The position numbers and the translations under genes were made by a program. From Bacteroidales bacterium (GTDB lineage: Bacteria > Bacteroidota > Bacteroidia > Bacteroidales > P3): a DNA stretch of 39,374 nucleotides. The notes beneath the pieces were generated by a model, which was not told the origin of the DNA, made no database searches, and saw nothing but the letters and a program-made list of their open reading frames with translations. The DNA is taken from the NCBI GenBank assembly GCA_017446745.1, contig JAFSQF010000024.1, positions 1 through 39,374 on the forward strand, written 5' to 3'. Positions 11,993 to 35,139 of this stretch are shown one piece after another. Within the stretch, counting starts at the first letter, position 1. Every line of letters starts with the position of its first letter.

Positions 11993-12088
11993 TTTCGTTA
12001 TTTCGATGTTTCGATGTTTCGATGCTTCGATATTTCAATATTTCGATGTTTCGATATTTCGATGTTGCGATGCTTCAATATTTCGAGA
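11993..12088 (+). repeat. 8-bp phased array (TTTCGATG), 12 units
   Basis: Starting at 11993 every 8 bases begins a variant of TTTCGATG: TTTCGTTA, TTTCGATG three times, CTTCGATA, TTTCAATA, TTTCGATG, TTTCGATA, TTTCGATG, TTGCGATG, CTTCAATA, TTTCGAGA. Phasing is kept without a single indel. It fills the gap between the YbjQ start (11965) and the permease stop (12101). Same-unit arrays occur at 13851-14030, 22295-22342 and 35092-35139. Confidence 0.9.
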
Positions 12089-12100
12089 AAAATCATCTGA

Positions 12101-12919
12101 TCAATACTGCATCTTTTTCAGACGACGGAAAGTGAAGAAGCTGAATATCGCGGTCAAGAGTGCCGAGAAGGCTATGCTTACCCAATAGGTGTTGGTGAAA
12201 AAACGGTAAGGTTCAAGATCGTACATGTGGTTGGAAATCCACTCTATAAACCTCGGGGCGTTGTGGATAAAAATGGGCAGAAGGATATTGGTGAGGACGA
12301 AGCCTATAAGCATGCTCCAGAGGATGGTCTTGATGAACTTGTTCTTCTTGAATATGGTGTTGGTGAAGAAGAACACCGAGGCTGTGGAGAATACCGACAG
12401 CACGCAGCTGAGCAGTGCGTAGCCGCCATAGAAGAAAGGTATTGTCGTGCCGTCATAATAGCTATAATCGATTCTGCTGCCGAAAAGCGAGGCGTCCCAG
12501 ATGGGCGAGTCGAAGGGGCCGAAGGGGAAGACGAAGAGGACCGTATCGACGATGGCGGAGCCCAGGAATACCGCTAAAGGAGCAAGGATGAACGAGTAGA
12601 GGAACATGCTCCAGAATTTCTCGCCCAGCGAGGCCGGCAGCATGGCGAAGTAGTTGCCCGTGCCGCGGAGGTTGCAGCTCTTGTAGATCTTCAGGGGTGC
12701 AAGGGCGGCGGCGAGGGTCGTCATCAAGTAGACCACCCAAAGGCGCATAGTCGGTGGCACCTCAAAGTTCTCGTTTAGCGGGTGGAACACCCATCCAAGG
12801 GTCCAGATGGCCACGGGGATAAGCATCAAGATAAGCATGCTGAAGCCATAGAGCGACAGCGTATTGTGGAAGTCGTAGACTACGACTTTCTTGAAACGGT
12901 TGAAGCTGAATTTGTTCAT
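12101..12919 (-). CDS. ABC-2 type membrane protein, partner of the adjacent ATPase
   Basis: A 272-residue integral membrane protein with about six hydrophobic segments (roughly residues 22-45, 63-82, 103-128, 158-188, 196-218 and 245-266) and basic loops such as FKKNKFIK. I do not recognise a specific family motif. The ATPase gene directly upstream (start of this gene 12919, ATPase stop 13003) and the YtrA-like regulator downstream make an ABC-2 type permease the best reading. Substrate unknown; export of a lipid, peptide or antibiotic is typical for such modules. Confidence 0.75.
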   Translation of the reverse strand: MNKFSFNRFKKVVVYDFHNTLSLYGFSMLILMLIPVAIWTLGWVFHPLNENFEVPPTMRLWVVYLMTTLAAALAPLKIYKSCNLRGTGNYFAMLPASLGEKFWSMFLYSFILAPLAVFLGSAIVDTVLFVFPFGPFDSPIWDASLFGSRIDYSYYDGTTIPFFYGGYALLSCVLSVFSTASVFFFTNTIFKKNKFIKTILWSMLIGFVLTNILLPIFIHNAPRFIEWISNHMYDLEPYRFFTNTYWVSIAFSALLTAIFSFFTFRRLKKMQY

Positions 12920-13002
12920 GACAGGAAGAGATGTTGAATTGGTTAATTATTTAGCAGTTTTTTTGTCGAAGCTATTTTATATGACAATTTATATAACAAG
13001 CC

Positions 13003-13827
13003 TTAAAAAAGAGATTTGATGGTGGTTTGATTGCGGAGCACGGCGTTGAAGAGTGCCTCGATGTTGACCTGGCTTTCGCCGAGGCCGTTGTTGACCAGCA
13101 CATTGAGGAAACCGCCGGGCATCATCTCGCTATAGAGGGCGTCGGGACGTTGCTGCTCTGCATATTCAAAGAAGAGCTTGGAGGTAATCTCCTCGGTGGT
13201 GGCGTGAAGAAGGACGTTGTTCTGCGAGATGATGATGATGGGGTCGATGAGGTTCTCCACATCCTTTACCTGGTGGGTGGAGATAATAATGGTCTGACGA
13301 TCCCCCACCTTCTCGCTGAGGATGCGACGAAAGTCGGCCTTGGAGGGTATGTCGAGGCCGTTGGTGGGCTCGTCGAGGAGCAGGTATTCTGTGCCAAGGG
13401 CCAGGGCACAGCACAGGAGCGACTTTTTCTGCTGACCGAAACTCATCTCCTTGAAACGCCGGTTGAGGTCTATCTGGAACTCATTGGCCAGATGCACCAA
13501 CTGCTCCTCGTTCTGGTTGGGATAGAAAGGGGCCATGCCACGATAGAACACGAGGGGGGTGGACGAGTCGGGCACCGGCACCTCGTCGGGGAGGAAGAAA
13601 ATGCTCTGAAGGAATTCGGGCTGGCGGTCGAAGCAATCGAAGTCGTCGACCTGACATGAGCCCACGGTGGGTTTCAGCAAACCGCTGATGCATTTCAGGA
13701 GTGTGGTCTTTCCCACTCCATTCTCGCCAAGGAGGCCATAGATGGCTCCGTTCTTGAACTGCAGATTGATGTTGTCGAACACCTGCGTCTTGCCATAGGC
13801 AAAGGAAAAATCTCTGATGTTGATCAT
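13003..13827 (-). CDS. ABC transporter ATP-binding protein
   Basis: A 274-residue ATPase subunit of an ABC transporter. Visible motifs: Walker A GENGVGKTT (residues 34-42), signature MSFGQQKK (about 128-135), Walker B and D-loop LLLDEPTNGLD (about 149-159), and switch histidine in ISTHQVKD. The C-terminal 60 residues are less conserved and may be a dimer or regulatory segment. It is the first gene after the promoter at 14111-14141 and is followed by its membrane partner, a YbjQ protein and a GntR regulator. The closest known arrangement is the YtrA-controlled type of ABC module involved in envelope stress in Firmicutes; the role here is inferred. Confidence 0.93.
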   Translation of the reverse strand: MINIRDFSFAYGKTQVFDNINLQFKNGAIYGLLGENGVGKTTLLKCISGLLKPTVGSCQVDDFDCFDRQPEFLQSIFFLPDEVPVPDSSTPLVFYRGMAPFYPNQNEEQLVHLANEFQIDLNRRFKEMSFGQQKKSLLCCALALGTEYLLLDEPTNGLDIPSKADFRRILSEKVGDRQTIIISTHQVKDVENLIDPIIIISQNNVLLHATTEEITSKLFFEYAEQQRPDALYSEMMPGGFLNVLVNNGLGESQVNIEALFNAVLRNQTTIKSLF

Positions 13828-13850
13828 AGGGGATATTTATTGTTTAATTG

Positions 13851-14030
13851 CTTTCGCTGTTTTCGTTGCTTTCGTTGTTTTCGCTGTTTTCGTCGTTTCG
13901 CTATTTCGTTGTTTCGCTATTTTCGTTATTTCGCTGCTTCGATATTTCGATATCTCGATATCTCGATATTTCGATATCTCGTTATTTCGATGTTTCGTTA
14001 TTTCGCTGTTTCGCTGCTTCGTCGTCTTGA
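13851..14030 (+). repeat. Long 8/9-bp phased array (TTTCGNTR) in the ABC operon leader
   Basis: About 22 consecutive variants of TTTCGCTG/TTTCGATA/TCTCGATA. The first few units near 13851 are 9 bp (an extra T or C), then the phase settles at 8 bp. It shares its unit with the array at 11993-12088. It lies between the ABC ATPase start (13827) and the promoter at 14111-14141, so it would be transcribed as part of a 5' leader of about 275 nt. Open frames crossing it on the plus strand (repeats of SRYFDI) are artefacts of the array. Confidence 0.88.
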
Positions 14031-14085
14031 AATCAAAAATATCATTTCTTTCTGTTTTTGAACAACATATACAACATATTTCATT

Positions 14086-14109
14086 AGTGTATTAGTTGAT
14101 TAGTACACT
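14086..14109. promoter_or_regulatory. Candidate YtrA-like operator AGTGTA-N12-TACACT
   Basis: A perfect 6-bp inverted repeat, AGTGTA (14086-14091) and TACACT (14104-14109), with a 12-bp spacer. It sits directly downstream of the -7 element at 14111-14118, across the expected transcription start of the ABC operon. From memory, the half-site AGTGTA resembles the operator described for Bacillus YtrA. The YtrA-like regulator is encoded in the same transcript, so negative autoregulation is a reasonable inference. Confidence 0.55.
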
Positions 14110-14110
14110 G

Positions 14111-14141
14111 CAAAAGTACAACAATTTCTGAAACTACCAAA
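14111..14141 (-). promoter_or_regulatory. Promoter of the ABC/GntR block
   Basis: On the minus strand TTTG (14141-14138) is followed after exactly 19 bp by TACTTTTG (14118-14111). This fits both elements and the spacing of the Bacteroidota housekeeping promoter (TTTG-N19-21-TAnnTTTG). Transcription would start near 14105 and run left into the ABC ATPase gene. Confidence 0.75.
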
Positions 14142-14160
14142 ATTTTTTTCTTATTTTTGA

Positions 14161-14196
14161 AGAAAATAAAAAAAACCAGCTAAAAATAGCTGGTTT
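14161..14196 (-). terminator. Intrinsic terminator of the YD-like repeat protein gene
   Basis: On the minus strand a perfect 10-bp stem (AAACCAGCTA, TTTT loop, TAGCTGGTTT; 14196 to 14173) runs into a T-rich tract (TTTTTTATTTTC). It lies 44 bp after the stop codon at 14240 and separates the MBL-cstA-YD block from the ABC promoter just beyond. Confidence 0.85.
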
Positions 14197-14239
14197 CCAA
14201 TCATTCAAAAAAATTACTTATGAAGCGTTCAATTTAATT

Positions 14240-18269: not shown

Positions 18270-19370
18270 ATGGCACTTAAAAGAGTAATGGTACTGACCG
18301 GAGGGGGCGACTGCCCGGGGCTGAATGCGGTGATACGTGGCATCGTGAAACGTGCATCGCAGGAGAGCGACTGGGAGGTGGTGGGCTGCATAGAGTCATT
18401 CAACGGCGTGCTGCGCGAGCCCACAGAGATAGAGATACTCGACGAGAAACGCGTGGAGGGGTTGCAGGTACTGGGAGGGACAATAATAGGGACCACCAAC
18501 AAGGGCGGCCCTTTTGCATGGCCCGTCAAGCTGAGCGACGGCACCTGGACCACCGCCGACCGAAGCGACGAAATGTTGCGTAAGCTGCAGTACTTGGGCA
18601 TCGATGCCGTCATCAATATCGGAGGCGACGGAAGCCAGCGCATCTCGCTGGGTCTGTTCAACAAAGGTCTGAATATAGTGGGCGTGCCGAAGACGATAGA
18701 CAACGACCTGTCGATGACCGACTACACCTTCGGTTTCCAGACCGCCGTACAGATATGCACCGATGCCATCGACAAGCTGGTGACCACCGCAGCAAGCCAT
18801 AATCGCGTGTTTATCATGGAAGTGATGGGGCGTGATGCCGGATGGATAGCCCTGCATAGCGCCATAGCCGGCGGCGCCGACATCTGTCTGATTCCCGAGA
18901 TACCCTACGACATCGAGAAGGTGAAAGCCAAGATAGAGCAGCGCTACAACAAACGTCGCGGCTACTGCATCATAGTGATTGCCGAGGGGGCCATGCCCAA
19001 GGGCGGCACGGTGACGGGCACCGAGACCGGCGAGGTGGGCTACCAGCACATCAAGCTGGGCGGCGTTGGCGAGCAACTCGCCGCCGACCTTAAAGCCGCC
19101 GGAGTGGAGCACGACATCCGCTGCACCATCCTGGGACACCTACAGCGCGGCGGCACACCCATAGCCTTCGACCGCGTGCTGGCCACCGAGTTCGGCGTGC
19201 GCGCCATGGAATTCGTGCTGGAAGGTCGCTTCGGGCAGATGGTGGCATACCATCACCCCGACATCGTGGGCGTATCGCTGGAAGAGGCTGTACGCACCCC
19301 GCACCTCATAGACCCCAACGAACGCCTGGTACACACCGCCAAGGGTATAGGAATAGAAATGGGCGATTAA
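18270..19370 (+). CDS. pfkA: 6-phosphofructokinase (probably ATP-dependent, group III type)
   Basis: Phosphorylates fructose 6-phosphate to fructose 1,6-bisphosphate in glycolysis; cytoplasmic, 366 residues. Motifs: TGGGDCPGLNAVIRG (10-24), GGDGS (118-122), PKTIDND (140-146, with catalytic Asp144) and MGRDAGWIALHSAIAGGAD (about 186-204). Gly121 in GGDGS points to ATP as donor, since PPi enzymes have GGDD. Lys141 in PKTIDND is, however, the residue typical of PPi-linked enzymes. This Gly/Lys mix is known from the so-called group III PFKs, which use ATP. The gene is directly followed by a 9-bp-unit array and then purH, with no terminator, so the two may be co-transcribed. Confidence 0.93.
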   Translation: MALKRVMVLTGGGDCPGLNAVIRGIVKRASQESDWEVVGCIESFNGVLREPTEIEILDEKRVEGLQVLGGTIIGTTNKGGPFAWPVKLSDGTWTTADRSDEMLRKLQYLGIDAVINIGGDGSQRISLGLFNKGLNIVGVPKTIDNDLSMTDYTFGFQTAVQICTDAIDKLVTTAASHNRVFIMEVMGRDAGWIALHSAIAGGADICLIPEIPYDIEKVKAKIEQRYNKRRGYCIIVIAEGAMPKGGTVTGTETGEVGYQHIKLGGVGEQLAADLKAAGVEHDIRCTILGHLQRGGTPIAFDRVLATEFGVRAMEFVLEGRFGQMVAYHHPDIVGVSLEEAVRTPHLIDPNERLVHTAKGIGIEMGD

Positions 19371-19500
19371 CCCCATCAACCCCATTAAACCCATCAACCC
19401 CATCAACCCCATTAAACCCATTAAACCCATCCTCCCCATCAACCCCATCAACCCCATCAACCCCATCCCCCTCCCCATCAACCCCATCCTCCCCATTAAA
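19371..19500 (+). repeat. 9-bp array (CCCCATCAA/CCCATTAAA) filling the pfkA-purH gap
   Basis: About 14 units of CCCCATCAA, CCCATTAAA and CCCCATCCT begin at the first base after the pfkA stop codon and continue to within 11 bp of the purH start. No promoter, terminator or ribosome site is visible. Reading it on the minus strand gives open frames made of MGLMG repeats, which are artefacts. Confidence 0.92.
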
Positions 19501-21193: not shown

Positions 21194-22216
21194 ATGGGAC
21201 TATTCTCATTTTTTAACAGAGAGCTGGCCATGGATCTTGGCACTGCCAACTCCATCGTAATATTCAACGACAAAGTGGTGATCGACGAGCCATCTATCGT
21301 GGCATTGGACAAGACCACCAACAAGATAATGGCAGTAGGGAAGAAAGCCAAACTGATGGAGGGCAAGCAGAACAACAAAATAGAGACCATCCGCCCGCTG
21401 CGTGGCGGCGTCATCGCCGACTTCGAGATGGCGCAGCACATGATACGGGAGCTCATCAAGATGACCAACATCAGCCGCTCGTTCATGCCGCCGGCGTTGC
21501 GCATGGTGATATGCATACCGTCGGGAATAACGAATGTGGAGGAGCGTGCCGTACGCGAGAGCGCCGAGCAGGCCGGAGCCAAAGAGATACGCATGATTCA
21601 CGAACCCATGGCAGCAGCCATAGGTATTGGCATCGATGTTCTCCAGCCCTACGGCAATATGATAGTGGACATCGGAGGCGGCACCGCCGAGATCGCCGTG
21701 ATATCGTTGGGCGGTATAGTATGCAACAAATCAATTAAAGTCGCCGGAGATGTGTTCAACGAAGATGTGAAAGACTATATGCGCAAGCAGCACAACATAG
21801 TGATTGGCGACCGCACCGCCGAGGAGTTGAAGATTGCCGTGGGCTCAGCAATATCGGAGTTGGACACGCCGCCAGAGGAGTTCCTCACGCGCGGACGCGA
21901 CATGATGACAGGACTACCCAAGACCATTCTGGTGAATTACAAGGAAATAGCCCACGCCTTAGACAAGTCGATATCAGCCATAGAATCGGCCATCTTGGAG
22001 ACGCTGGGCAACACACCTCCCGAGTTGGCCGCCGACATCTACGACAACGGCATCTTCCTGGCCGGAGGAGGCTCGCTGCTCCGCGGGTTGGACCAGAGGA
22101 TAGCATCGAAGACACACCTCAAGGTGCATATTGCCGAAGACCCGCTGCGTGCCGTGGCACGAGGAACAGGGATAGCGTTGAAGAATTTCAACCGGTTCTC
22201 GTTCCTGATAAAATAA
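21194..22216 (+). CDS. mreB: Rod-shape actin homologue MreB
   Basis: Actin-like ATPase that forms membrane-bound filaments and guides lateral wall synthesis; 340 residues, full length. Motifs: phosphate 1 MDLGTANSIVIF (about 13-24), RPLRGGVIADF, PSGITNVEERAVRESAEQAGA, IHEPMAAAIGIG, phosphate 2 MIVDIGGGTAEIAVIS and the adenosine site IFLAGGGSLLRGLD. The N-terminal GLFSFFNRE may help bind the membrane. In most Bacteroidota mreB is followed by mreC, mreD, a class B PBP and rodA. Here a terminator and then the giant surface protein gene follow instead, so those partners must be elsewhere if present. Confidence 0.96.
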   Translation: MGLFSFFNRELAMDLGTANSIVIFNDKVVIDEPSIVALDKTTNKIMAVGKKAKLMEGKQNNKIETIRPLRGGVIADFEMAQHMIRELIKMTNISRSFMPPALRMVICIPSGITNVEERAVRESAEQAGAKEIRMIHEPMAAAIGIGIDVLQPYGNMIVDIGGGTAEIAVISLGGIVCNKSIKVAGDVFNEDVKDYMRKQHNIVIGDRTAEELKIAVGSAISELDTPPEEFLTRGRDMMTGLPKTILVNYKEIAHALDKSISAIESAILETLGNTPPELAADIYDNGIFLAGGGSLLRGLDQRIASKTHLKVHIAEDPLRAVARGTGIALKNFNRFSFLIK

Positions 22217-22294: not shown

Positions 22295-22342
22295 ATTCGA
22301 TGGGTTGATATTTCGATGTTTCGATGCTTCGATGCTTCGAAA
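22295..22342 (+). repeat. 8-bp phased array (TTTCGATG), six units, before the giant gene
   Basis: ATTCGATG, GGTTGATA, TTTCGATG, TTTCGATG, CTTCGATG and CTTCGAAA follow at exactly 8 bp, starting two bases after the T-run of the mreB terminator and ending 42 bp before the giant gene. The stretch between (22343-22384) is nearly all A and T. I see no TAnnTTTG promoter here, so the start of transcription of the giant gene is unclear. Confidence 0.85.
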
Positions 22343-22384: not shown

Positions 22385-25300
22385 ATGAAGAATCGGGGGA
22401 TGATGCAAGGGCTGATGGCGGTGCTGTGCTGGTGCTGGTGGTTCGTTGCGCCTGTGAGCGGACAGACGGTGCTGGAGTATGGGAGATGGATAGAGATTGA
22501 TGCGTGCGAAGAGGCAGAAGGAATGATCTACGATGACGGAGGAGCCACGGGCAGCTACAGCCTATTCTTTGAGGGCGGATGCATTATCAACGCTCAACCC
22601 GGGGTGACGATATCGCTGGAGGGTAACTACGACATCACCCAATCATTCACCGACATGCTATCAATCTACGACGGCAGCCAGAGCGAGGGCGACCTTGTGG
22701 GAAGCTATACTGGCAGTGGGACAATAAACCTGACGTTGACCAGCGGCACCATTGTGATACGTTTCGTCAGCAGTAGCGGCACGCCCACCGGAGGATTTGC
22801 GCTGCACTGGAGAGCTTCCGGGTTTGCCTCCAGCTGCGAAAACACCGTCAGCAATCTGGCAGTAAGCAACATAGGGCTTAACAGCGCCACATTAAGTTGG
22901 AACAGCACCGGGGCGACATCGCAATTCCGCATCCTCTGTGGACCCACCGACAGCGTGGTGACAGGAAATACAGTAACTCTCAACGGCCTGACACCATACA
23001 CACACTACACCTTCCGTATCAGCGACATTGCCGATGCCGACGAGCCGTGCTGTATGGCCAGTGTGGCATTCCGGACCTTGTGTGGCGACGAGATTGCGCC
23101 ACCTTTGGAGGAGCATTTCGATGACTACACTGCCGACACCGACGCCATGCCCAGTTGCTGGACAATGTCCTCCAACTACGACCAAGGCATACAGACACGG
23201 ATAGAGAGCCTGGTGGATGGCATCAACGCCGCTCTGGCATTGCGCTGTGGGGCGGGAGCCACGCCAGAGCATTATGGAATGGCCATACTGCCACCAATGT
23301 CGGTACCCGTCGACCAAATCAGGCTACGCTTCAGAGCCCTCACCACCATTGCCAACACCGCGTTCGAGATAGGCATCTGCGGAGTGCCGGGAACCACCCA
23401 GAACTGGAACGATGTCTTCGAGGCCATCGACACCATACAGCTGCCGGCAAACAACCAATGGCAGGATATAGCCTTGGATTTCGCAGCCTACCAAGGCACG
23501 GGACACCGCGTGGCATTCAGGATTCAACGCAGCATGCAAGCCGCCAACAACCAATACGTTGTCATCGACGACCTTTTCTTGGAGACCTGTGGCGTCAGCA
23601 GTCTGACGACGGGCGACAAAGACCGACGGAGCCTGACACTGAGGTGGGACACCTACGGCGAGCCGCAGCGGGTAGACCTCAGCTACCGTGCAGTAGGCAC
23701 GACGACTGCGGATACCATCCACGACGTCGCCTCGCCCCTGCACCTCGGCGGGCTGGAGCCGGGCACCACCTACCTCTTCACGCTGACCAGCATTTGCAAC
23801 GCCGACCTGGGCAGCCAGACCACGACAGCTATCGTAGACAGCACCTTGAACGACCTACCGTTGACGATAACCTACTGCGAAGACTTCGAGACACCTGGCG
23901 AGGCCATCCCTGCCGGATGGAGAGCCTTGAGCGACGCCACCGACGATGCCACATGGTGCCGACAGCAGGGCAGCACCCTCTATGCCGGAGAACAGGCTCT
24001 GACCTTCCAGGGGGCTAATGCCCATCCGCTACGCACCATCATACTGCCTCCACTTGAAGGAATAGGTGTCGAATGGCTGCAAATGGCCATGATGATACAA
24101 TCGGCAACGCCAGACGCAAAACTTGAGGTCGGCGTGATGGAAAGCCCCGAAGAGTTGAGCTCCTACACTGCCGTCGACACTTTAGAAGTGGGGCAGCAGG
24201 GCAGTTTCTCGCGCGTGATGGCAGACTTCTCAAACTACAGCGGCAACGGAGAGTGGATAGCCCTACGCGTCTACAACGGAGGATATAACAGCACGATACG
24301 CATCGACAACCTCCAGTTGTCGACATGCATGCTTAGCGGGCTTAGTGTGGCCAGCACCGGCATGAACAGCGTAGAGCTGCGCTGGGACCAAGTGGGTGAG
24401 CTTCATCTGGGCGACAGCGTGCGCCTGCTCTATGGCCGCAGCGGATTCAGTGCCGACACAGCCTCCATGATTGTCGTGCCTGTGCGCGGCGATGCCGTGG
24501 AGCTACGCAACGGCAAACAAATCACAAGGATAGAAGGATTAGAAGCCAATACAGCCTACCAGTTCCTGATACTGCCCATGTGCGTCGGGGCCACAGAAGA
24601 ATGCGACATTGAACGTTTAGAGGCACACACGCTCAACAGCGAGCCCACCCTCCCCTACTGCATCGACTTCGAAGGGGAGAACATGATACCGGCGGGATGG
24701 AACATACTGTCGGGAGAGGAAGGCTTGCCATGCGTGACAGACACCCTTCCGGCCCATGGCGGACAGAAAGTGCTGACCATGCTCAGCAAAGGAAACCGCA
24801 ACCAGACAAACAGTGCCATAGCACTTCCCGAGATAGAGGTTGACGACATGCGCAACCTGGTGATAAGTTTCTACACCTGGACCGCACACAACAACGTGCA
24901 TCTGGATGTCGGCGTGATGGCCGACATCGACAATATGAGCCTGTTCGTGCCGGACACCGACCTGCTGCTCCACACCAACCGTTGGGAGCACCACGTGCTT
25001 AGCCTCAGTGCCGCAAGCAGCCCTACAGGGCGGATAGTGTTCCGGCAGTATCACACCGGAGCCTCCGGACAGGGGCGCGAGCTCTTCATCGACGACCTCT
25101 CAATCAGCAACTGCCAGGTCTTGAACCTGCACCACAACTGCATCACGTCGCATTCCGTGGCAATACGGTGGGACAGCGTGGGGGCTGCATTTGAGGGGGC
25201 GCAAGTGGAGATAGGACGTTCTGGCTTCGACGCCGGGGAGGGGCTGCTGAGCGACGTGCTGCACGGAGACCTGTTGACCATAGACACCCTGCAACCTGGG

Positions 25301-28300
25301 CAGACCTACGAATACTATGTGCGTTCGGTATGTGCGAGCCAGAACGCGCAGTGCAGCTACGACCGCATGGGGTTCGCCACACTGAGTGCCGCCACACGCA
25401 CCTCGTGGTGCTACGACTTCGAAGAGAGCGACATAGGCAACTATCCCACATCGTGGCAACAAGCCCTCATCTACAACAACACGCCACGGGTGGTGGCCGA
25501 CCGGCCCTTCTCCGGCACCCATTCGCTACTCCTCAGCAGCGGCGGCGGCAGCAGCATGGCAGCCCTGCCACCCATAGAAGACGACGACCTCGGCAGCATA
25601 ACGCTGTCATTCATGGCTCGCGGCAGCATACAGAGCGATGCCGGCGACACCCTTACCATCGGCATGATTGCCGACACCTACGACACCAGCACCTTCCATG
25701 CCGTAGCCTCGTTTGGAGTGAGCCACACCGACTACCGTCGCTACACCGTAGCGCTGCCCTCGCCGGGGACCATAGAGCAGATAGCCCTGAAGAAAAAAGG
25801 GCTACACAATGTGTGGATTGACGACCTCCGGCTGTCGCGATGCACCATCGACAGCATAGAGCCATACAACGTCACCACCACGGCGGCATCGGTGCGATGG
25901 ACCGCAGGCGGCGACATAGACAGCGTGGCACTGACCCTTACCGACGGCATCGACACGACGACTGCCGTGGTGCGGAGCGTCAATGGCCACACCTTCGACG
26001 GCCTCGAGCCCGGCACGCCCTACAGCCTCAGCCTCCTGCCCTATTGCAGCGGAAGCATCAACGCCTGCATGGCGGAGACCGTGACATTCAGCACCAACGC
26101 CTTCCCGGTAGATGATGGCTTTTGCTCAGACGACAGCGCCCGGCTAAGCCCGGCGACACCACTACACATGCTCGAAGCTGCCGAGACGCCGTTGAGCGGA
26201 CTGCTCCTAAGCTTTTCCGCCCATGGCACCGAAGGAAGCCGCCTGGAAGTCGGCGTGATGGATTATCCGATGCATCCCAACAGTTTTGAAGCCCTCGACA
26301 CCGTGACCCTCGGTCCGCAGGCTCAACGTTATCACGTGGCTCTCGCGGGCTATGAGGGGCAAGGGCGCTACATAGCCTTCCGCCTTGACGGCAACGCCGC
26401 ATGGGTCGGCGACATCAGCCTGTCGTCCTCGCATGTCACGCACATAGAAGTGAGTGGAATTAGCGACACCTCCTTTGTGCTGAGGTGGCAGCGGCTACCG
26501 GGCCAATCCCCCGGAGTTTACGTCGGCTACCGTCCGATGGGTGAAAGCGAGGTCGCTGCCACCATGGCCTACACCGAAGAGGACGAGATTGCCATTGGCG
26601 GGCTTGCCAACGGAGGACAGTACCTTGTAGAGCTTTGGGCCCAGGGGCAGGACACTTCCAAGGCCTGCCAGGCCGAAAGCGTGGCGGTGCACCTGATGGA
26701 GAGCCCCTTCGCCATACCCACCTGCATCACCTTTGAAGAGTGCGGCAGCATGCCGCTTCCTGCCGGATGGTATGCGCCGACAGGAGGCGTCGGCTTAGGC
26801 AACACCACAGCCATAGGAGCCAACGCCCTTCAACTTGCCGCAGACAGCAGCGGGGCCGTTGCCGTCATGCCCATGCTGGCCGAAGAGGCCGGCACGCTCT
26901 ACATGGATTTCCAATGCCTAAGCGATGCCGAGGCCACCTTGGAGGCCGGCATCATGGACAATCCCCACGACACCGCCACATTCCAAAGCATGGCAACATT
27001 CGAAACCTCCTCTGGAGGATGGCGGCACTTTTATGCCGACATAAACGCCGGCGAGGCCACGGCCTTCTATATAGCCTTCAGAGTGAAGACCGCTGGCGTG
27101 ACCACGGCAGCAGTAAGCATCGACCAGATCACCCTGCGACGCTGCCGCCTCGCCAGCGCCACAGCCCACGATGCCACCGACACCAGCATAGCCCTGAGCT
27201 GGACCGGAGCGGGGACCGACAGCATATATGTGGAATATCGCGAAGGGACGGCAGATTTCGAGCCCGGCGAGGGAAGCAGGCTGACACTGTCGGCTCACGA
27301 CACCGTGATAAACGGATTGACGCCAGGCACTTGGTATACATTCCATTTCCACACCGCCTGCCACCTCCACGACGCAGGATGCAGCTTCGAGGTGGACTCA
27401 CTGCGCACCACAATGCCATCCCACCCCCTCCCCTATTGCGAAACATTCGACGACGACAGCCTTGCCATCCCGGCAGGCTGGTACCGCAGCGCGAACCAAG
27501 ACTTTCCACACATCACAGCGGAACGAAGCCGCGACGGAGCGAAGTCGCTCGCTTTTCATGCCACCGCCAGCCAGCCCTGTCATACGGTGCTGCCCGCCCT
27601 GCCCAGAGAGGCCATGGACGCCGCAGTGTTGTCGTTCGACAGCTACAGCACCACCAGCAGCGGTTCGCTGATAGTGGGCACGATGACAAACCCTTACCAT
27701 GAAGACACCTTCGTTGGAATGGATACCCTACAGCAGCAAAGCAACCGATGGGTGTACCACGTGCTGCCACTGTCAGTCGGCGCAGCCCCATACATAGCCC
27801 TGCGCTATGAAAGCCACGAAGGAGAGCCTTACTACATTGACAATCTGAAGCTCAGCCAATGTGGCGTGACCGATATAGCGATGGATATAAGGGACACCGG
27901 CATAGAGCTGCACTGGCGTCCCCTCAATGCGCCGCACATCGTCGAGGTGGAATATGGGCTGCAGGGATTTGAGCGCGGCAGCGGGGCTACGGCGAGCGTG
28001 GAGGACACCCTCCTGTGGCTTTCGAATGCTCAGCTGGCCCTGCTCGACGCCCGGGTGGCGGAAGCCGAAGCCAGCAGGCAAAGCATAGACTTCTACATCG
28101 TGGCGCGATGCGACGACAGTAGCGAATATGGATGCCACGAGCACCCGGTCAGTGCCAACCGCAGCATAGCGATGCCCTACTGCGAAGATTTTGAGGAGGT
28201 GGAGGCTGCCGGCAGTGGGATGCCGGCGTCATGGAGCGTAGTGCTGCACAGCAACGAAAACGATGCCAGCCCACACGTAGAGGAGCTTGACGGAAGGAAA

Positions 28301-31300
28301 GTGATGACCTTCAGAAGCCCTGAAGAGCAGGGCACCGACATAGTGCTGCTGCCACAACTGCCGGCGGGCGACAGCCTGGCGGGCAAATGGGTCAGCGTGC
28401 TCATGCAGTCGGACATGAGCAACAGCGTAGCTCTGGAGATAGGCTTCTTGAGCGACACCGCCGACGTCACCACCTTCGTGGCCATGACCACCATACGCAA
28501 CACAGCAAATGCACGGATGGAACGCCTGAGCGGACAGCTGAACGGCACTCCAACCAACCAACGGCTGGCCTTGCGCGCCACAAGCACCAACAGCACCCGC
28601 ACGCTACGCCTCGACGAACTGACGCTCACCTCATGCCCCACGCCACACCTTGAAGCCATCGGTGCCCACGCCATTATGGCCACCGTCGACGACGAGGCCC
28701 CCGACTATTGGATTGCAATGACTACAGAGGACCCGGAGCCAGGACAGGCCATCGAGATGGTTCACGTGACCGAGGCGTCATACCTGATGGAAGGACTGGA
28801 GCCCGGCACAAGCTACAGCATCGTCAGTCAGTGCAGCAGCGGTGAGACGCCCTGCTGGCCCGCCAGCAGGGTCACTACAGGCGAAGCCCTCGCCGTGCCC
28901 CTATGCGACGATTTCAGCAGCTACGGCAGCGGCATAGGTACAGTGCCCTACGGATGGAGCACCACAGCAAGCCCGGGCAACAGCAACTACCCGAGAGTGG
29001 ACACCGAGAGCGGCCGCGCGGCACTCCATTTCCGCAACAACAGCAGCTCCACATGCATCGCCACAATGCCCGAATTGGCATTGGACAGCCTTCACCACGG
29101 CGAGATTTATATCAGCATGCAAGCCAACGCCAACAGTGCCTTAGTGGTTGGACTAACCGACCGACAAGGCGAGCCAACCACCTTCATGGCCATCGACACC
29201 CTGCGCAATCATGGCAACGACCGCGAAGAGCATCACGTGTCGCTTCATGGTCTTGAGGACGCAGGGTTCTTCTTAGCTTTCTCGCAGCTCAGCCCCACCA
29301 ACTCATGGTCCGACATTTACATTGACAGACTATATATCAACAATTTCCCGCTGCCAGAAGCAGAGCTGGTGGACTGGAACAGCGTGAGGGTAAGCATCGA
29401 CAGCGGCATAGCCGGCAGCTACACTATAGAATATGGGCCTCATGGCTTCGCGCCCGGCGAGGGGGTGCGGCTGGTTGTGGAGGGCCACGACACCCTGCTT
29501 GAGGGGCTATCGGGCAACAGCCGCTACGACATCTATGCCTGGCGCTCCGGGGCTTACGAAGAATGCGGCACATGCCACAGCAGGCAATGCCGCACCTTTG
29601 CCACGGTGAGCACCAGCACCAGGACATCCCTGCCTTATTGCGAACACTTTGAGGGCTACGGCTCCGGAGCGGAGAGCATGGCATCGGGATGGATGAGGCA
29701 TCATAGCCACGAAACCTATGCCCCCGGCGTGGAGGCGAATAGCGAAAAATACCCGCAGGTGGTGCAACGCGGCGACGGCATCTACGCGCTGCGCATGAGA
29801 AACCGCACGGGTGAGGTGTGCCAAGCCACCATGCCCCTTATGGAGGCCGACAGCATCCAGCAGCTAAACATATACCTTTCCATGCGTACCGAGAGCTATG
29901 CCAACGAGGCCTTGGTTGTGGGGCTCACCGCCAACCCCAACGACCCCACGGACTTCAAGCCTTTCGACACCCTGACCAACACCACCAACAGCTGGCAACG
30001 CCATCATCTCGCGCTGGCAGGCTATGAGGGACAGGCCCGCTTCGTGGCGCTGCGCCTGCTGGTGAGCCAGGCAACGTGGCGCAACCTCGACATCGACTTT
30101 ATCAACGTGCAGAGCTGCCCGCCCGCCGTGGTGCACCTCGTAAGCCACAACAGCGTCGCGCTGGCAGTAGATTCCACGCACGAAGCCGACTACTGGTTAG
30201 CCTTCGGACCTTCGGGAGCCGCGGAACCCGACACCGTGGTGCACATCACCGATAATCCCTTCACGGTAGAGGGACTCAGCGACGATATGCTTTATGACTT
30301 CGAGGCGCGTTGCGACAGCGCCGGCACAACGTGCGCTGGACCGGTGAGCATAGCCACGAGCCATCTGGAGCCCCTTCCCTACTGCAACCATTACGACAGC
30401 GAGGGCGGCACCTTGATGCTTGCCGGCACCCTGCTGAGCAACAGCCTGTGGGTAATGCCCGAAATCGCCGTCGACGAGCTCCGGGGGCTGCAACTGACCC
30501 TAAGCCTGCTGGTGCCAGACGAGGCTCTCACCTATGCCGGTGTGGAGGTCGGCGTGCTGTCGCATGCCGACGATGCCGCCAGCTTCGAGACCGTAGCCCT
30601 GCTCTGCAACCAAGGCAGCGGATGGCAGAGGCATCAGGTCAGCATGGCCTCCTACGATGGCACGGGGCGCTTCGTGGCCCTGCGGCTCAGAAACACATCC
30701 AACAGCACCTACACCGTGCAGGTCGACGACCTCATGGTGGAGGACTGCCACATCCCCGCCGACCTGAGGATGACCCTCGTCGACCATAACACCGCCCTGC
30801 TGCAAAGCAGCGAGCCCATGCCTTCCTCCTTCTATATTGAATACGACACCGCAGGCTTCGCGCCCGGCGAAGGGACCACGGTGCTCTGCGACACCCTGCC
30901 TCTCCTGCTGGTCTTAGAGAGCGGACGGGCCTACGACCTCTATCCGCTGTGCCACTCCGGCGCCGCCACCTGCCGGCAGCCGCTGCAGATAGTGACCCTC
31001 GGCGATGCCGAGAGCCTGCCCCTGTGCATCGACACCCTCGCCATCGCCGCCAGAGCCGGCGAGACAGCACTCCTCCTGCTTCCACCTCTGGCCGTCGACA
31101 CCATAGCCGATATCGTAGTGTCGGCGCACCTGACGGGAACGGAGAACGGCATCCTGGAGCTGGGCGTCATGAACGACCCCTACGACACCAGCACTTTCAT
31201 CAGCGTAGCACCCCTCGAAGGCGGCAACGAATTGCGGCATACCGTGTTCCCCATAGCCTCGCCCGACCCCGATGCTCATTTCCTGGCCCTGAGGCTGAGA

Positions 31301-34300
31301 GCCGACAGCAGCGACGCAGCATGCACGATAAGCAACCTCGCGTTCTCCCGTTGTGGGATGTGGGGAGCCTCGGTGTGCGCCATAGGGAGCGAAGTTGTGG
31401 AGCTGCAATGGCAGAGCATGGGCTCAGGAAGCGTGGAAATTGTTCGGAACCAAAACGGACTGAATGGCGGCGACACCATCACGGTCGAAATGAGCCAGAA
31501 CCACGTCGTCCTGGATGGGTTGGAGCCTTTGAGCAACTACACTTTATTTGTCCGCGGATGGTGCGGCCCTGATGGCAACGCCCCCTGCCAGACCTCCTAT
31601 TTCGACACCTTCACCGTCTTCACCCCCGGAGGAGCACACAATTGCATCGACCCCACCAACCTTACCGCCGAATTCGTCACTTGCTACTATGGCACCTTCG
31701 CCAATCCGTGGGCGCAGCAGGGGGTGGTGGACTACGGCTGCAGCTCCGCCCTAAGCCGCCACACGGTGCACTACGACCCCGAGGAGACCGACCCACGCAC
31801 CGGAGGCTTGCTCCACACCGTCCCGGCAGGGGCGGCAGCCAGCGTGCGCCTGGGCAACTGGAACACCAGCACGTCACATCCACAGGCCGAAGCAATGGAA
31901 TACATCCTTTTCGTTGACTCCTCGCTGTTCGACCTCTTAGTGCTGCGCTATGCGGCAGTGCTCCAGGACCCCGACCATGCCCCCTCCGACCAGCCCCGCT
32001 TCACAATGCAGATCCTCGACGCCGACCATCAGCTCCTGAGCCAATGCAGCTATGCCGACTTCAGAGCCAACCGCACCATGGGGTGGAATACGGTGGAGGG
32101 CAGCCAGGTGCTATGGAAAGACTGGACCACGGTGGGCGTGGACTTGAGCCCCTATGCCGGACAAACGGTGCTGGTGCGCCTTACGACCTACGACTGCAAC
32201 GAAGGCAGCCATTTCGGCTACACCTATTTCACGCTGGAATGCAGCAAGAAGCACATGGAGGTGATGTTTTGCGGCAATGTGGAAGAGAACACCTTCACAG
32301 CTCCGGCGGGCTTCTCCTACACTTGGTACACCGACCCGGACAGCATTGCCTCAAGCACCGTAAGCACCGGCCAAAGCATCACTGTGTCGACCAGCAGCGG
32401 CCTCACCTACTATTGCCGCTGCGCTTTCATCAACGACACTTCTTGCTCGTTCACCCTCTCAGCCTTCGCAGGCACCCGCCACCCCTTGGCTCTGATGGAG
32501 CCCACGGTGACGGTGCACGACTGCCTGTTTGATGTATCCTTCGAAAACCTCAGCACTATATCGAACGACGGGGTGACACCCCTCGGCAACGGCGAGCCCT
32601 GCGAGAGCGCCCTATGGGACTTCGGCAACGGCGAGAGCTCGACGCTGTACCATGCCACCACAACCTACAGCGACACCGGCCTATACACCGTGCAGCTGAT
32701 TAGCAGCATAGGACAGGGGGAATGCAGCGACACGCTGACCTACGCCCTTCGCCTCGACTGGCCCGAGGTGACAAATCAGGCAGACACCATTGCCGACATA
32801 TGCCTCGGCGACACCCTGACGCTGACAGCACCGGCGGTGAGCCACCTGGTGTGGAGCACCGGCGAGACCGACAGCACCATCACCGTAAGCCCTGACACCA
32901 CGACCACATTCAGCTGCTTCTTCTCCAACCGGAACGGATGCCCCGACACCATGAACATCACCCTCTCTGTGCACCCTCCAGCCCATAGCCTCGACACCGC
33001 CGTGGTGTGCGCCAACGCCTTCCCTTACCTGTGGATGGACAGCACCATAGGGCGTGGCGACAGCGACAGCCTATGGCTTCAGGCTCTGCTCGCCACCGGA
33101 TATGGATGCGACAGCGTGGCGAGCCTGCTCCTGGTGGCCGCCGACACCAGCGAGGTGGCAGAACGCGACACCATCGTGATGTCGCAGCTGCCATGGACCT
33201 TCCTCGGCCTTACGTTCAACAGCAACGACCTAGTGCCCTACAACAACGGCTACGCCACGGCGACAGACACCATAGTGCTTACAAACCATAGGGGATGCGA
33301 CAGCGTGGTGCACTACACCCTGATGGTGCACCGCACCGCCATCACCGAGCTGGACAGCACCATCTGTGGCACCATGCTGCCTTTCTACTGGGGCCCCTTC
33401 GCGTTCGATTCGTCCGCCTTCACGGTGGTCGACGGCAACATGATTGCCGAAGGGCGCGACACGCTGACGGCATGGGGAGGCGAAGACAGCATGGTGGTGT
33501 ATAGGGTTACGCTCCGGACCCCCTACAGCGAGCGCGACACCATGGCGGTGTGCAACAATATGTTCCCCTTCAGCTGGCGCGACACCGTCGTCGCCACCGG
33601 CACGGCAGGCACCACCGAACTCACCATAAGCATAGGGGCCTGCGACAGCACGGCGACACTGCAACTCACCATCCTGCCCTCGCCAAGCCACGACGAGGCT
33701 CTGACGCTCTGCAGCTCCGCACTGCCCTACCAATGGCACGACACCACGATTGCTGCACCGGCCACGGGCCAGCACTCACTGACCCATACCCTCCTGGCCG
33801 CCAACGGATGCGACAGCACGGTGACCCTGACACTTACGGTGAACGAAAGCTACCTGCTCAACGTCACGGAGGAGGTGTGCCTTGACGAGATGCCCTACGC
33901 ATGGCATGACACCATTCTTGACGATACCGGACAGGCCACGGCATCGCTGCTTGCCGCCAACGGATGCGACAGCACGGTGACGCTCAGCCTCTTCGTGCAC
34001 CCAACCTACGACATCGCTGACAGCGCGACACTATGCCCCGGCAACCTACCCTACAGGTGGCGCGACACCGTGATCTACTTCGCCCCGCCAGGCTACAGCG
34101 TCTTTATGCGGCACGACACCACACGCTTCGGATGCGACAGCCTCGCCACACTTCTGCTGAATTTGAAGAGCAACGTCACCACCTACCTGCGCGACAGCAT
34201 CTGCGAGGGCGACACCTATTTCTTCAACGGCAGGGTGCTGCAGAACGGAGGCTTCTTCGGCGACACCACAAGGGCAGCCAACGGCTGCGACAGCATCGTG

Positions 34301-35089
34301 GAGCTGACGCTGCACCAACTCTACAGACCTGATATTGAATTCACCGTTGACCACGACTGCCATGCTCGGCAGTACTATATCCGGGCCAATGCGGGGGTGG
34401 ACTTCCTCTGGTGGTCGTCCGGGCGCAGCTGGAATGCCGACTGGGGGCCGCAGAATGGCAGCTACCTGGTGGTGCACCCCGACCGCACAACCACCCTATA
34501 CCTGACAGCGGACTACAACGCTTGGCCTACCTGCCCGGCAACCGACAGCCTGACGCTGCACCCCATAGTGATGCCGCAGGCCCTGATGAGCGTGAACACC
34601 GAGGCATTGACGCCCGACAACAACAGCTTCACGGCCTTGTCGCGCAGCACCGGGGCGCAATGGCTGGCCTGGTATGTGGACAGCGAGAATATGGGAGGCG
34701 GCAACGAGCTATCCTATAGCTGCGACCTGCAAGCCGACTCGGTGGTGCTGATGCTCGTAGCCGGCAACGAGCTGTGTGTGGACAGCACCACCACGGTGCT
34801 GCCGATACACAGGATGAGCTTCTACGTACCAAACGCCTTCACCCCCGACGAGGCCACCAACAACGAGTTCTGCGTGCAGCAGGAAGGCATGCGCGAGGCG
34901 CAGCTGGAGATCTTCACCCGCGGAGGCCAACGTCTGTTCAGCAGCAAGGAGGTGGGAGCACGGTGGAACGGCACCTGCAACGGCATCCCCTGCCCTCAGG
35001 GGGCCTACGTGTGGAAGCTACGCTACCGCAGCGCCGTCGACCCCGGCTATTGGCACGAGGAGATCGGCACAGTGATGCTGCTTAGATAA
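22385..35089 (+). CDS. Giant (4234-residue) modular T9SS surface protein, probable adhesin
   Basis: A secreted or cell-surface protein. Order: signal peptide (about 1-27, ending VSGQ); a CUB-like domain (about 30-145); then alternating fibronectin type III (13) and MAM/jelly-roll-like (12) modules from about 150 to 3085, with period about 235 residues. Jelly rolls typically open with YCEDFE...PAGW and close with IDDLxLSxC. Next come a Cys-rich beta domain (about 3085-3340), a PKD domain (about 3370-3465, ALWDFGNGES), eight repeats ending GCDSxVTLxL (about 3525-3975), and a T9SS type B (CHU_C) sorting domain from about 4145 (YVPNAFTPDEATNNEF to GAYVWKLRYR). Nine FN3 modules carry a C-x6/7-C pair, suggesting disulfides. 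No catalytic motif is visible. Binding to cells, polysaccharide or host is inferred from the architecture. Confidence 0.93.
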   Translation: MKNRGMMQGLMAVLCWCWWFVAPVSGQTVLEYGRWIEIDACEEAEGMIYDDGGATGSYSLFFEGGCIINAQPGVTISLEGNYDITQSFTDMLSIYDGSQSEGDLVGSYTGSGTINLTLTSGTIVIRFVSSSGTPTGGFALHWRASGFASSCENTVSNLAVSNIGLNSATLSWNSTGATSQFRILCGPTDSVVTGNTVTLNGLTPYTHYTFRISDIADADEPCCMASVAFRTLCGDEIAPPLEEHFDDYTADTDAMPSCWTMSSNYDQGIQTRIESLVDGINAALALRCGAGATPEHYGMAILPPMSVPVDQIRLRFRALTTIANTAFEIGICGVPGTTQNWNDVFEAIDTIQLPANNQWQDIALDFAAYQGTGHRVAFRIQRSMQAANNQYVVIDDLFLETCGVSSLTTGDKDRRSLTLRWDTYGEPQRVDLSYRAVGTTTADTIHDVASPLHLGGLEPGTTYLFTLTSICNADLGSQTTTAIVDSTLNDLPLTITYCEDFETPGEAIPAGWRALSDATDDATWCRQQGSTLYAGEQALTFQGANAHPLRTIILPPLEGIGVEWLQMAMMIQSATPDAKLEVGVMESPEELSSYTAVDTLEVGQQGSFSRVMADFSNYSGNGEWIALRVYNGGYNSTIRIDNLQLSTCMLSGLSVASTGMNSVELRWDQVGELHLGDSVRLLYGRSGFSADTASMIVVPVRGDAVELRNGKQITRIEGLEANTAYQFLILPMCVGATEECDIERLEAHTLNSEPTLPYCIDFEGENMIPAGWNILSGEEGLPCVTDTLPAHGGQKVLTMLSKGNRNQTNSAIALPEIEVDDMRNLVISFYTWTAHNNVHLDVGVMADIDNMSLFVPDTDLLLHTNRWEHHVLSLSAASSPTGRIVFRQYHTGASGQGRELFIDDLSISNCQVLNLHHNCITSHSVAIRWDSVGAAFEGAQVEIGRSGFDAGEGLLSDVLHGDLLTIDTLQPGQTYEYYVRSVCASQNAQCSYDRMGFATLSAATRTSWCYDFEESDIGNYPTSWQQALIYNNTPRVVADRPFSGTHSLLLSSGGGSSMAALPPIEDDDLGSITLSFMARGSIQSDAGDTLTIGMIADTYDTSTFHAVASFGVSHTDYRRYTVALPSPGTIEQIALKKKGLHNVWIDDLRLSRCTIDSIEPYNVTTTAASVRWTAGGDIDSVALTLTDGIDTTTAVVRSVNGHTFDGLEPGTPYSLSLLPYCSGSINACMAETVTFSTNAFPVDDGFCSDDSARLSPATPLHMLEAAETPLSGLLLSFSAHGTEGSRLEVGVMDYPMHPNSFEALDTVTLGPQAQRYHVALAGYEGQGRYIAFRLDGNAAWVGDISLSSSHVTHIEVSGISDTSFVLRWQRLPGQSPGVYVGYRPMGESEVAATMAYTEEDEIAIGGLANGGQYLVELWAQGQDTSKACQAESVAVHLMESPFAIPTCITFEECGSMPLPAGWYAPTGGVGLGNTTAIGANALQLAADSSGAVAVMPMLAEEAGTLYMDFQCLSDAEATLEAGIMDNPHDTATFQSMATFETSSGGWRHFYADINAGEATAFYIAFRVKTAGVTTAAVSIDQITLRRCRLASATAHDATDTSIALSWTGAGTDSIYVEYREGTADFEPGEGSRLTLSAHDTVINGLTPGTWYTFHFHTACHLHDAGCSFEVDSLRTTMPSHPLPYCETFDDDSLAIPAGWYRSANQDFPHITAERSRDGAKSLAFHATASQPCHTVLPALPREAMDAAVLSFDSYSTTSSGSLIVGTMTNPYHEDTFVGMDTLQQQSNRWVYHVLPLSVGAAPYIALRYESHEGEPYYIDNLKLSQCGVTDIAMDIRDTGIELHWRPLNAPHIVEVEYGLQGFERGSGATASVEDTLLWLSNAQLALLDARVAEAEASRQSIDFYIVARCDDSSEYGCHEHPVSANRSIAMPYCEDFEEVEAAGSGMPASWSVVLHSNENDASPHVEELDGRKVMTFRSPEEQGTDIVLLPQLPAGDSLAGKWVSVLMQSDMSNSVALEIGFLSDTADVTTFVAMTTIRNTANARMERLSGQLNGTPTNQRLALRATSTNSTRTLRLDELTLTSCPTPHLEAIGAHAIMATVDDEAPDYWIAMTTEDPEPGQAIEMVHVTEASYLMEGLEPGTSYSIVSQCSSGETPCWPASRVTTGEALAVPLCDDFSSYGSGIGTVPYGWSTTASPGNSNYPRVDTESGRAALHFRNNSSSTCIATMPELALDSLHHGEIYISMQANANSALVVGLTDRQGEPTTFMAIDTLRNHGNDREEHHVSLHGLEDAGFFLAFSQLSPTNSWSDIYIDRLYINNFPLPEAELVDWNSVRVSIDSGIAGSYTIEYGPHGFAPGEGVRLVVEGHDTLLEGLSGNSRYDIYAWRSGAYEECGTCHSRQCRTFATVSTSTRTSLPYCEHFEGYGSGAESMASGWMRHHSHETYAPGVEANSEKYPQVVQRGDGIYALRMRNRTGEVCQATMPLMEADSIQQLNIYLSMRTESYANEALVVGLTANPNDPTDFKPFDTLTNTTNSWQRHHLALAGYEGQARFVALRLLVSQATWRNLDIDFINVQSCPPAVVHLVSHNSVALAVDSTHEADYWLAFGPSGAAEPDTVVHITDNPFTVEGLSDDMLYDFEARCDSAGTTCAGPVSIATSHLEPLPYCNHYDSEGGTLMLAGTLLSNSLWVMPEIAVDELRGLQLTLSLLVPDEALTYAGVEVGVLSHADDAASFETVALLCNQGSGWQRHQVSMASYDGTGRFVALRLRNTSNSTYTVQVDDLMVEDCHIPADLRMTLVDHNTALLQSSEPMPSSFYIEYDTAGFAPGEGTTVLCDTLPLLLVLESGRAYDLYPLCHSGAATCRQPLQIVTLGDAESLPLCIDTLAIAARAGETALLLLPPLAVDTIADIVVSAHLTGTENGILELGVMNDPYDTSTFISVAPLEGGNELRHTVFPIASPDPDAHFLALRLRADSSDAACTISNLAFSRCGMWGASVCAIGSEVVELQWQSMGSGSVEIVRNQNGLNGGDTITVEMSQNHVVLDGLEPLSNYTLFVRGWCGPDGNAPCQTSYFDTFTVFTPGGAHNCIDPTNLTAEFVTCYYGTFANPWAQQGVVDYGCSSALSRHTVHYDPEETDPRTGGLLHTVPAGAAASVRLGNWNTSTSHPQAEAMEYILFVDSSLFDLLVLRYAAVLQDPDHAPSDQPRFTMQILDADHQLLSQCSYADFRANRTMGWNTVEGSQVLWKDWTTVGVDLSPYAGQTVLVRLTTYDCNEGSHFGYTYFTLECSKKHMEVMFCGNVEENTFTAPAGFSYTWYTDPDSIASSTVSTGQSITVSTSSGLTYYCRCAFINDTSCSFTLSAFAGTRHPLALMEPTVTVHDCLFDVSFENLSTISNDGVTPLGNGEPCESALWDFGNGESSTLYHATTTYSDTGLYTVQLISSIGQGECSDTLTYALRLDWPEVTNQADTIADICLGDTLTLTAPAVSHLVWSTGETDSTITVSPDTTTTFSCFFSNRNGCPDTMNITLSVHPPAHSLDTAVVCANAFPYLWMDSTIGRGDSDSLWLQALLATGYGCDSVASLLLVAADTSEVAERDTIVMSQLPWTFLGLTFNSNDLVPYNNGYATATDTIVLTNHRGCDSVVHYTLMVHRTAITELDSTICGTMLPFYWGPFAFDSSAFTVVDGNMIAEGRDTLTAWGGEDSMVVYRVTLRTPYSERDTMAVCNNMFPFSWRDTVVATGTAGTTELTISIGACDSTATLQLTILPSPSHDEALTLCSSALPYQWHDTTIAAPATGQHSLTHTLLAANGCDSTVTLTLTVNESYLLNVTEEVCLDEMPYAWHDTILDDTGQATASLLAANGCDSTVTLSLFVHPTYDIADSATLCPGNLPYRWRDTVIYFAPPGYSVFMRHDTTRFGCDSLATLLLNLKSNVTTYLRDSICEGDTYFFNGRVLQNGGFFGDTTRAANGCDSIVELTLHQLYRPDIEFTVDHDCHARQYYIRANAGVDFLWWSSGRSWNADWGPQNGSYLVVHPDRTTTLYLTADYNAWPTCPATDSLTLHPIVMPQALMSVNTEALTPDNNSFTALSRSTGAQWLAWYVDSENMGGGNELSYSCDLQADSVVLMLVAGNELCVDSTTTVLPIHRMSFYVPNAFTPDEATNNEFCVQQEGMREAQLEIFTRGGQRLFSSKEVGARWNGTCNGIPCPQGAYVWKLRYRSAVDPGYWHEEIGTVMLLR

Positions 35090-35091
35090 TT

Positions 35092-35139
35092 CAAGATTTC
35101 GTTGCTACAAGATTTCGTTGCTTCGAGGTTTCGTTGCTC
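35092..35139 (+). repeat. 16-bp array (2 x 8 bp), three units, after the giant gene
   Basis: CAAGATTTCGTTGCTA, CAAGATTTCGTTGCTT and CGAGGTTTCGTTGCTC. TTTCGTTG recurs at 35097, 35113 and 35129, so the array is a doubled form of the 8-bp TTTCGNTG family. It starts three bases after the giant gene's stop codon. No terminator hairpin is seen here. Confidence 0.82.

Follow-up and report, generated by a model that had tools for sequence, protein, structure and literature searches.

Tandem arrays of an 8-bp unit in gaps between mostly co-directional genes of a Bacteroidales genome and of Prevotella are turned mostly by gene direction

The stretch of DNA considered here, which we refer to as the window, comprises positions 1 to 39,374 (39,374 nucleotides, forward strand) of contig JAFSQF010000024.1 from the Bacteroidales bacterium assembly GCA_017446745.1 and is contig C59 of the genome that we call G000 (2.79 Mb, 117 contigs). 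Four of its gaps between genes hold tandem arrays of an 8-bp unit that reads TTTCGATG on one strand and CATCGAAA on the other, and an array between co-directional genes is assigned to the main class if CATCGAAA lies on the mRNA strand and to the reversed class if TTTCGATG does. Such arrays are scattered over the genome and recur in Prevotella, and their orientation mostly follows the neighbouring genes, without a detectable effect of replication direction. The four arrays and their neighbours are the following:

11651 to 11965, minus strand: YbjQ-family gene (PF01906), downstream of array 1
11977 to 12088, minus strand: array 1, TTGTTTAA units running in phase into 12 TTTCGATG-type units (11993-12088)
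12101 to 12919, minus strand: gene upstream of array 1, no Pfam match
13003 to 13827, minus strand: ABC-transporter ATPase gene (PF00005), downstream of array 2
13843 to 14024, minus strand: array 2 (13851-14030 in the original prediction), about 22 chained units, several of them 9 bp long, of CATCGAAA type on the mRNA strand
21194 to 22216, plus strand: mreB (PF06723), upstream of array 3
22295 to 22342, plus strand: array 3, six units, reversed class (TTTCGATG in mRNA sense)
22385 to 35089, plus strand: open reading frame of 4234 aa between arrays 3 and 4, with fn3 and CUB domains (domain scan of the first 872 aa)
35092 to 35139, plus strand: array 4, three 16-bp units with one TTTCGTTG each, reversed class
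35392 to 35847, plus strand: rplM (PF00572), downstream of array 4

All four arrays had been named in an earlier reading of the letters (the original prediction), and both Tandem Repeats Finder and direct reading recovered them. Arrays 1 and 2 are the solid ones. The core of array 1 consists of 96 bp, namely 12 in-phase units with no indels, and the array occupies the gap 5' of the YbjQ-family gene, reading CATCGAAA in the mRNA sense of these leftward genes. Array 2 stops 15 nt short of the ABC-transporter ATPase start. Array 3 shows the exact TTTCGNTR in only two of its six units and is followed by a 42-nt A-rich leader and then by the ATG of the 4234-aa frame. Array 4, directly 3' of that frame and with rplM about 255 nt further on, is the weakest member, since TTTCGTTG makes up only one half of each 16-bp unit. 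With single copies on both strands included, TTTCGNTR occurs 38 times in the window, compared with a mean of 7.4 and a maximum of 14 in 100 shuffled versions. As had been predicted, the flanking genes run leftward beside arrays 1 and 2 and rightward beside arrays 3 and 4, and all four arrays show TTTCG on the plus strand. The original prediction took this to mean that orientation follows the chromosome and not transcription; the four arrays are alike on the plus strand because two of each class lie beside oppositely directed genes.

The further copies on which that prediction relied do exist. A search of G000 for three phased units returned 99 matches (72 forward, 27 reverse) on 16 contigs and none for the reversed-pattern control; a pattern of two units followed by a non-T base matched 41 times, again on 16 contigs, and both patterns together touch 18 contigs. 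The arrays reach up to about 24 chained units. A single strand throughout, correct for the window, does not hold for the genome, given the forward and reverse counts, nor for contig C80, where arrays on opposite strands lie less than 2 kb apart (5326, plus, and 7156, minus, of locus L091).

A detector scan of 17 stretches of G000 (the window and 16 others), with genes and starts from a simple codon-usage caller, yielded 39 arrays, of which 34 lie in gaps between co-directional genes, 3 in divergent gaps, 1 in a convergent gap and 1 within a reading frame; the short unit thus stands in direct tandem at many unlinked loci, intergenic in 38 of the 39 arrays examined. The main class accounts for 26 of the 34 co-directional arrays and the reversed class for 8. 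Two further contigs added two arrays, both with CATCGAAA in sense, which brings the total to 28/36 (nominal binomial p=0.001). In Prevotella the orientation is strict. Out of 49 loci, the 37 titled Prevotella, Prevotellaceae or Bacteroidales were classified, and all 41 co-directional arrays at the Prevotella loci carry CATCGAAA in mRNA sense, not counting 3 convergent arrays and 2 edge cases; the unclassified 12 are L038, L040, L045, L048, L054, L059, L065, L066, L067, L074, L076 and L078. A census of genome G103, the one genome for which all 40 listed matches were covered, gave 22 arrays and 18/18 in sense, 4 of these 18 repeating loci of the former set. The stretches of the dcw gene cluster, covered for all 16 array-bearing genomes (plus G049, see below), gave 15/15 in the Prevotella genomes with 1 edge case, and the parts of G104 and G392 that were covered (some contigs only) gave 5/5. 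At the Prevotella loci L185 and L193 the array orientation switches together with gene direction across about 1 and 5 kb, respectively. Orientation and position are thus set by the neighbouring open reading frames in 28 of the 36 co-directional gaps here and in all classified co-directional arrays of Prevotella, and the claim that the chromosome and not transcription decides the orientation has to be modified.

The two lineages concerned are well apart, since the MurE protein of G000 shares 61-67% identity with that of 23 fully matching genomes of its own genus and 51-53% with that of 16 array-bearing Prevotella-type genomes. Within the window's genus, TTTCGNTR arrays were found in 4 of 120 genomes, namely in G000 and in three others with 1, 1 and 3 matches, and within the genus of G101 (Prevotella) in 82 of 398 sampled genomes; the reversed control gave a match in 2 of these 398 genomes and none in the remaining pattern searches. 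A second unit, AACRCATT, is the usual one in the window's genus: a two-unit search was positive in 75 of 120 genomes, with between 1 and 120 matches in each (control 0). G000 has no match to this two-unit pattern, and its relative G049 has 35 (control 0). That AACRCATT might be a unit private to G049 was considered and is ruled out by the 75 genomes.

For main-class arrays of G000 the median distance is 7.5 nt to the preceding stop codon and 15.5 nt to the next start, which bears out the earlier statement that they fill their gaps, and for those of Prevotella it is 2 and 10 nt, respectively. The reversed class of G000 ends at a median of 45 nt before the start (p=0.009). In a pooled comparison of two genomes (G000 and G049) and two units (TTTCGATG/CATCGAAA and AACRCATT), from which a start-distance artefact of 2167 was removed, arrays with the A-rich face end at most 20 nt from the start in 23 of 40 gaps, compared with 1 of 18 gaps for arrays with the opposite one (p=0.00015); distances refer to the most upstream in-frame ATG in G000 and Prevotella and to the gene caller's start in G049. 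In the phylum Bacteroidota, translation starts without Shine-Dalgarno pairing. Among main-class arrays that end -9 to 40 nt from the start (22/26 in G000 and 40/41 in Prevotella, the rest being farther away), the 40 nt before the start contain 2 AUG in the 22 gaps of G000 vs 25 after in-silico reversal of the array, and none in the 40 gaps of Prevotella vs 62 after reversal. An avoidance of AUG near starts is described for Bacteroidetes in the part of the literature source considered here (PMC6847099).

From our point of view, these observations lean towards a dispersed 8-bp tandem family in gaps between mostly co-directional genes that is tolerated, and perhaps useful, as translation leader and spacer, and that is not a replication-polarity motif. 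Short A-rich leaders could have served as seeds, with replication slippage then expanding and contracting the unit number, and the TTGTTTAA units that run in phase into array 1 are a candidate for such a seed. The neighbouring co-directional genes flanking an array are probably co-transcribed, in which case the array would be transcribed as well and would become the leader of the downstream gene. Selection might then retain the CAUCGAAA face in the mRNA close to the start codon, since about every second unit of the opposite face, UUUCGAUG, contains an AUG. This opposite face occurs beside the upstream stop codon, where a separate leader usually keeps it away from the start.

Several points weigh against this account. 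The enrichment in co-directional gaps is not significant (34/38 intergenic arrays vs 194/239 gaps, p=0.26). The letters that give AUG are not depleted in reversed-class units (47/96 vs 148/342), and the idea of such a depletion was dropped. A lack of RNA structure as driver was likewise rejected: compared with dinucleotide shuffles the arrays have more structure (median z -2.2), and they fold about as weakly (-0.17 kcal/mol per nt) as array-free gaps (-0.14), so that structure avoidance is unsupported. The gene rule is weak in the window's genus, as the co-directional AACRCATT arrays in the examined parts of G049 are divided into 15 sense and 10 antisense. Finally, the 8 of 36 arrays here with the opposite face tend to lie on the same chromosome strand as the arrays near them, a tendency not expected from selection at the level of genes. 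When class labels were permuted and gene strands left as they are, a mean of 2.5 strand-concordant contigs was expected among the 8 multi-array contigs of G000, whereas 7 were observed (P=0.0001), and 34 of 44 array pairs lie on the same strand (P=0.004), in tests that were devised after the data had been seen and with one reversed array (contig C3) depending on a weak gene call. The chromosome-strand idea of the original prediction therefore retains some substance, in that arrays on one contig agree beyond gene direction, and loses its replication-strand rule, which GC skew did not reveal in G000. There may be a chromosome-level component in this genus.

One could ascribe this component to replication, with arrays that arise or persist with a fixed direction towards the fork, for instance through orientation-dependent slippage. 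In favour of this, G049 resembles G000 in its strand agreement, with 10 of 11 adjacent co-directional AACRCATT pairs on one strand (P=0.004), and its GC skew at 4-fold sites averages -0.247 in genes on the AACRCATT strand (n=129) vs -0.061 on the other (n=118; pooled p<0.001). Counted by stretch, the sign of the skew agrees in 11 of 15 (p=0.12), and we consider the link between AACRCATT strand and skew in G049 suggestive. Against it, when the same skew is taken in G000 and controlled for gene strand, the G-rich side carries TTTCG in 10 of 17 single-orientation contigs and in 4 of the 8 with clear skew. With skew standing in for a replichore map, this amounts to the random orientation that was to refute the original prediction, and it also argues against a leading/lagging-strand polarised motif of the KOPS or Chi kind. 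A smaller first pass on G000 had given p=0.015 for replication polarity, a signal that was gone with more sequence (p=0.44). Moreover, contig C80 flips within 2 kb, the co-directional arrays of Prevotella all follow the gene, and the blocks of G049 flip as well. In contigs C17 and C23 of that genome AACRCATT occurs in one-strand blocks with one flip within the examined part of each contig. Overall, we regard a replication-linked polarity as quite unlikely.

Regional agreement could also arise if arrays spread from a same-strand neighbour to nearby gaps, and the strand agreement in both G000 and G049 would fit such local copying. Arrays on one contig are, however, no more alike than others: among 30 arrays of at least 90 bp, shared exact stretches average 24.9 within the same contig vs 25.4 between contigs (p=0.62), and 4 of 24 best partners come from the same contig, which makes this the least probable of the explanations.

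A further possibility starts from the second unit. Antisense AACRCATT arrays of G049 overlap the stop codon or lie at most 5 nt from it in 8 of 10 cases and in none end within 34 nt of the start, and sense arrays end at most 10 nt before the start in 6 of 15. The gap between the apparent rsmH and ftsL genes is occupied by AACRCATT units in G049 (L162) and by a CATCGAAA array in G000 (L090). One could speculate that 8-nt gap repeats form a genome-wide family in this genus, with AACRCATT as the usual unit, and that AACRCATT was swapped genome-wide for TTTCGATG/CATCGAAA in G000 by a unit-knowing, perhaps fork-coupled, process of copying or maintenance, with translation then imposing the gene orientation. 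We hold such a swap to be improbable. If true, it would imply a process that recognises the unit, and the regional one-strand blocks would fit in here.

Homologous gaps were compared in the dcw cluster. Three gaps of G000 contain arrays, ftsI/murE (118 nt), murE/mraY (162 nt) and murG/murC (135 nt), and in the same three gaps no phased CGAA array was found in 20 same-genus relatives, whose murE/mraY gap measures 3-60 nt in 18 cases and 89 and 207 nt in the other two. The simplest reading is that the arrays in these gaps were gained in the G000 line, the alternative being a loss in all relatives. Array-bearing Prevotella genomes have a murE/mraY array in 6 of 16 and an ftsA/ftsZ array in 7 of the 15 in which ftsA was found (phased count), and the unit variants differ between species. 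As a separate observation on this cluster, the place between mraY and ftsW where murD would be expected (L090, 5644-8849) contains just a 181-aa frame; this interval is likewise short in 21 same-genus genomes (533-867 nt), and it spans about 1.3-1.6 kb in Prevotella.

The arrays might also be neutral microsatellites that arise by slippage in weakly constrained gaps, have no role and are filtered in orientation only by translational harm. The patchy occurrence (82/398 and 4/120 genomes) agrees with this, as do the other 7-11 bp arrays that relatives carry in comparable gaps. A single unit that recurs genome-wide in place of a random mixture does not, nor do the repeated murE/mraY and ftsA/ftsZ arrays of Prevotella, for which shared descent is an alternative cause. 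We see the neutral explanation as possible, albeit somewhat unlikely.

Alternatively, the arrays could be multivalent sites for a trans-acting translational regulator, a putative RNA-binding protein that would read CGAAA every 8 nt. Such a protein would account for one core at dozens of unlinked gaps in two distinct lineages, and both orientation and position suit a signal at the mRNA level. In Prevotella the C and G of the unit are also the best kept letters (98 and 99%, all others at most 95%), figures that are partly circular, as are those for G000, since the arrays were found by pattern search. In G000, however, neither C (93%) nor G (96%) is better conserved than two T positions (96 and 95%), C even falling below both, so that a special constraint on the CG core is unsupported there. 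The genus, moreover, mostly has the unrelated AACRCATT in like gaps (75/120 genomes) and TTTCGNTR arrays in just 3 of its 119 other genomes, and no candidate protein emerged, with no letter-by-letter comparison made with the 41-nt RbpB motif of Bacteroides. We judge a regulator unlikely. A literature search with the letters of the repeat unit, which covered mostly open papers and no bioRxiv preprints, returned no related paper (one unrelated text contains one spelling), and among the matches listed none dealt with 8-bp arrays between Prevotella cistrons.

Returning to the leader and spacer that we favour, a face free of AUG would be what lets repeats occupy the gaps between operon genes, which is a testable statement on translation without Shine-Dalgarno pairing. 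The strict orientation in Prevotella (41/41), together with the differing units of relatives, amounts to a natural experiment in which leader sequence and gap length vary. The residual strand blocks in the window's genus remain a puzzle.

Other tandem repeats were noticed alongside. At 19369-19496 the window contains a 14-copy array of the 9-bp unit AACCCCATC that ends 15 nt 5' of a purH-like gene (19512, AICARFT domain); 9-bp arrays resembling it are also present in L086 and L087, and the reverse face of AACCCCATC would carry an ATG. The 10-bp unit TTGCTGTTAA forms two window arrays on opposite strands (523-565 and 5045-5088), with more intergenic copies in L083, L084 and L093, and a 33-bp unit is repeated 3.5 times with 96% match at 4727-4843, between the long frames 694-4515 and 5147-8644. 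The same-genus loci L163, L165, L169, L170 and L182 hold 11-bp gap arrays such as CAGATACCTAC, with a period unlike that of the 8-bp families.

Dispersed short repeats between genes are known from several other bacteria. The STRR heptamers of heterocystous cyanobacteria are dispersed short tandem repeats in intergenic DNA with 7-bp units; they share the dispersed, tandem and intergenic character with the 8-bp arrays described here, and we know of no oriented intercistronic rule for them. The MIRU minisatellites of mycobacteria occur at dozens of loci between operon genes, are oriented with the genes and have units of tens of bp that form bridging frames. Here, few main-class gaps have a bridging frame that starts with ATG (3/26 in G000 and 5/41 in Prevotella; 4/8 in the reversed class), and a MIRU-like bridging frame was rejected on these counts.

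The closest published kinds are the oriented TAACTGA and GGGNATC heptamer repeats, to the extent that the portions of both papers considered here describe them; the arrays behave like these and differ in unit length, sequence and gap filling. TAACTGA direct repeats are found in Beggiatoaceae, cyanobacteria and some Bacteroidetes, are intergenic, mostly forward and located just 5' of start codons, have a patchy phylogeny and have been proposed to play a translational role (MacGregor, 2015, PMC4679880). A short, dispersed, direct unit that is intergenic, oriented near starts and patchy is common to both. Membership in the TAACTGA family itself was rejected, as the sequence and the length of the unit differ (8 bp, TTTCGATG, vs 7 bp), and the arrays here run to about 24 units and fill co-directional gaps. 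The GGGNATC heptamers of Xanthomonas and Nostoc prefer aligned open reading frames and are scarce between divergent ones (Rehm, 2015, PMC4692102), a preference that is not significant here (p=0.26). They contain G tracts that form a G-quadruplex, whereas the common units here are without G tracts, no run of three G being present in the 14 most frequent units of each class, which argues against a G-quadruplex. As regards position, GGGNATC lies on the non-coding strand near starts and on the coding strand near stops (PMC4692102), and it is this rule that the positional rule found here, including that of the AACRCATT arrays of G049, resembles.
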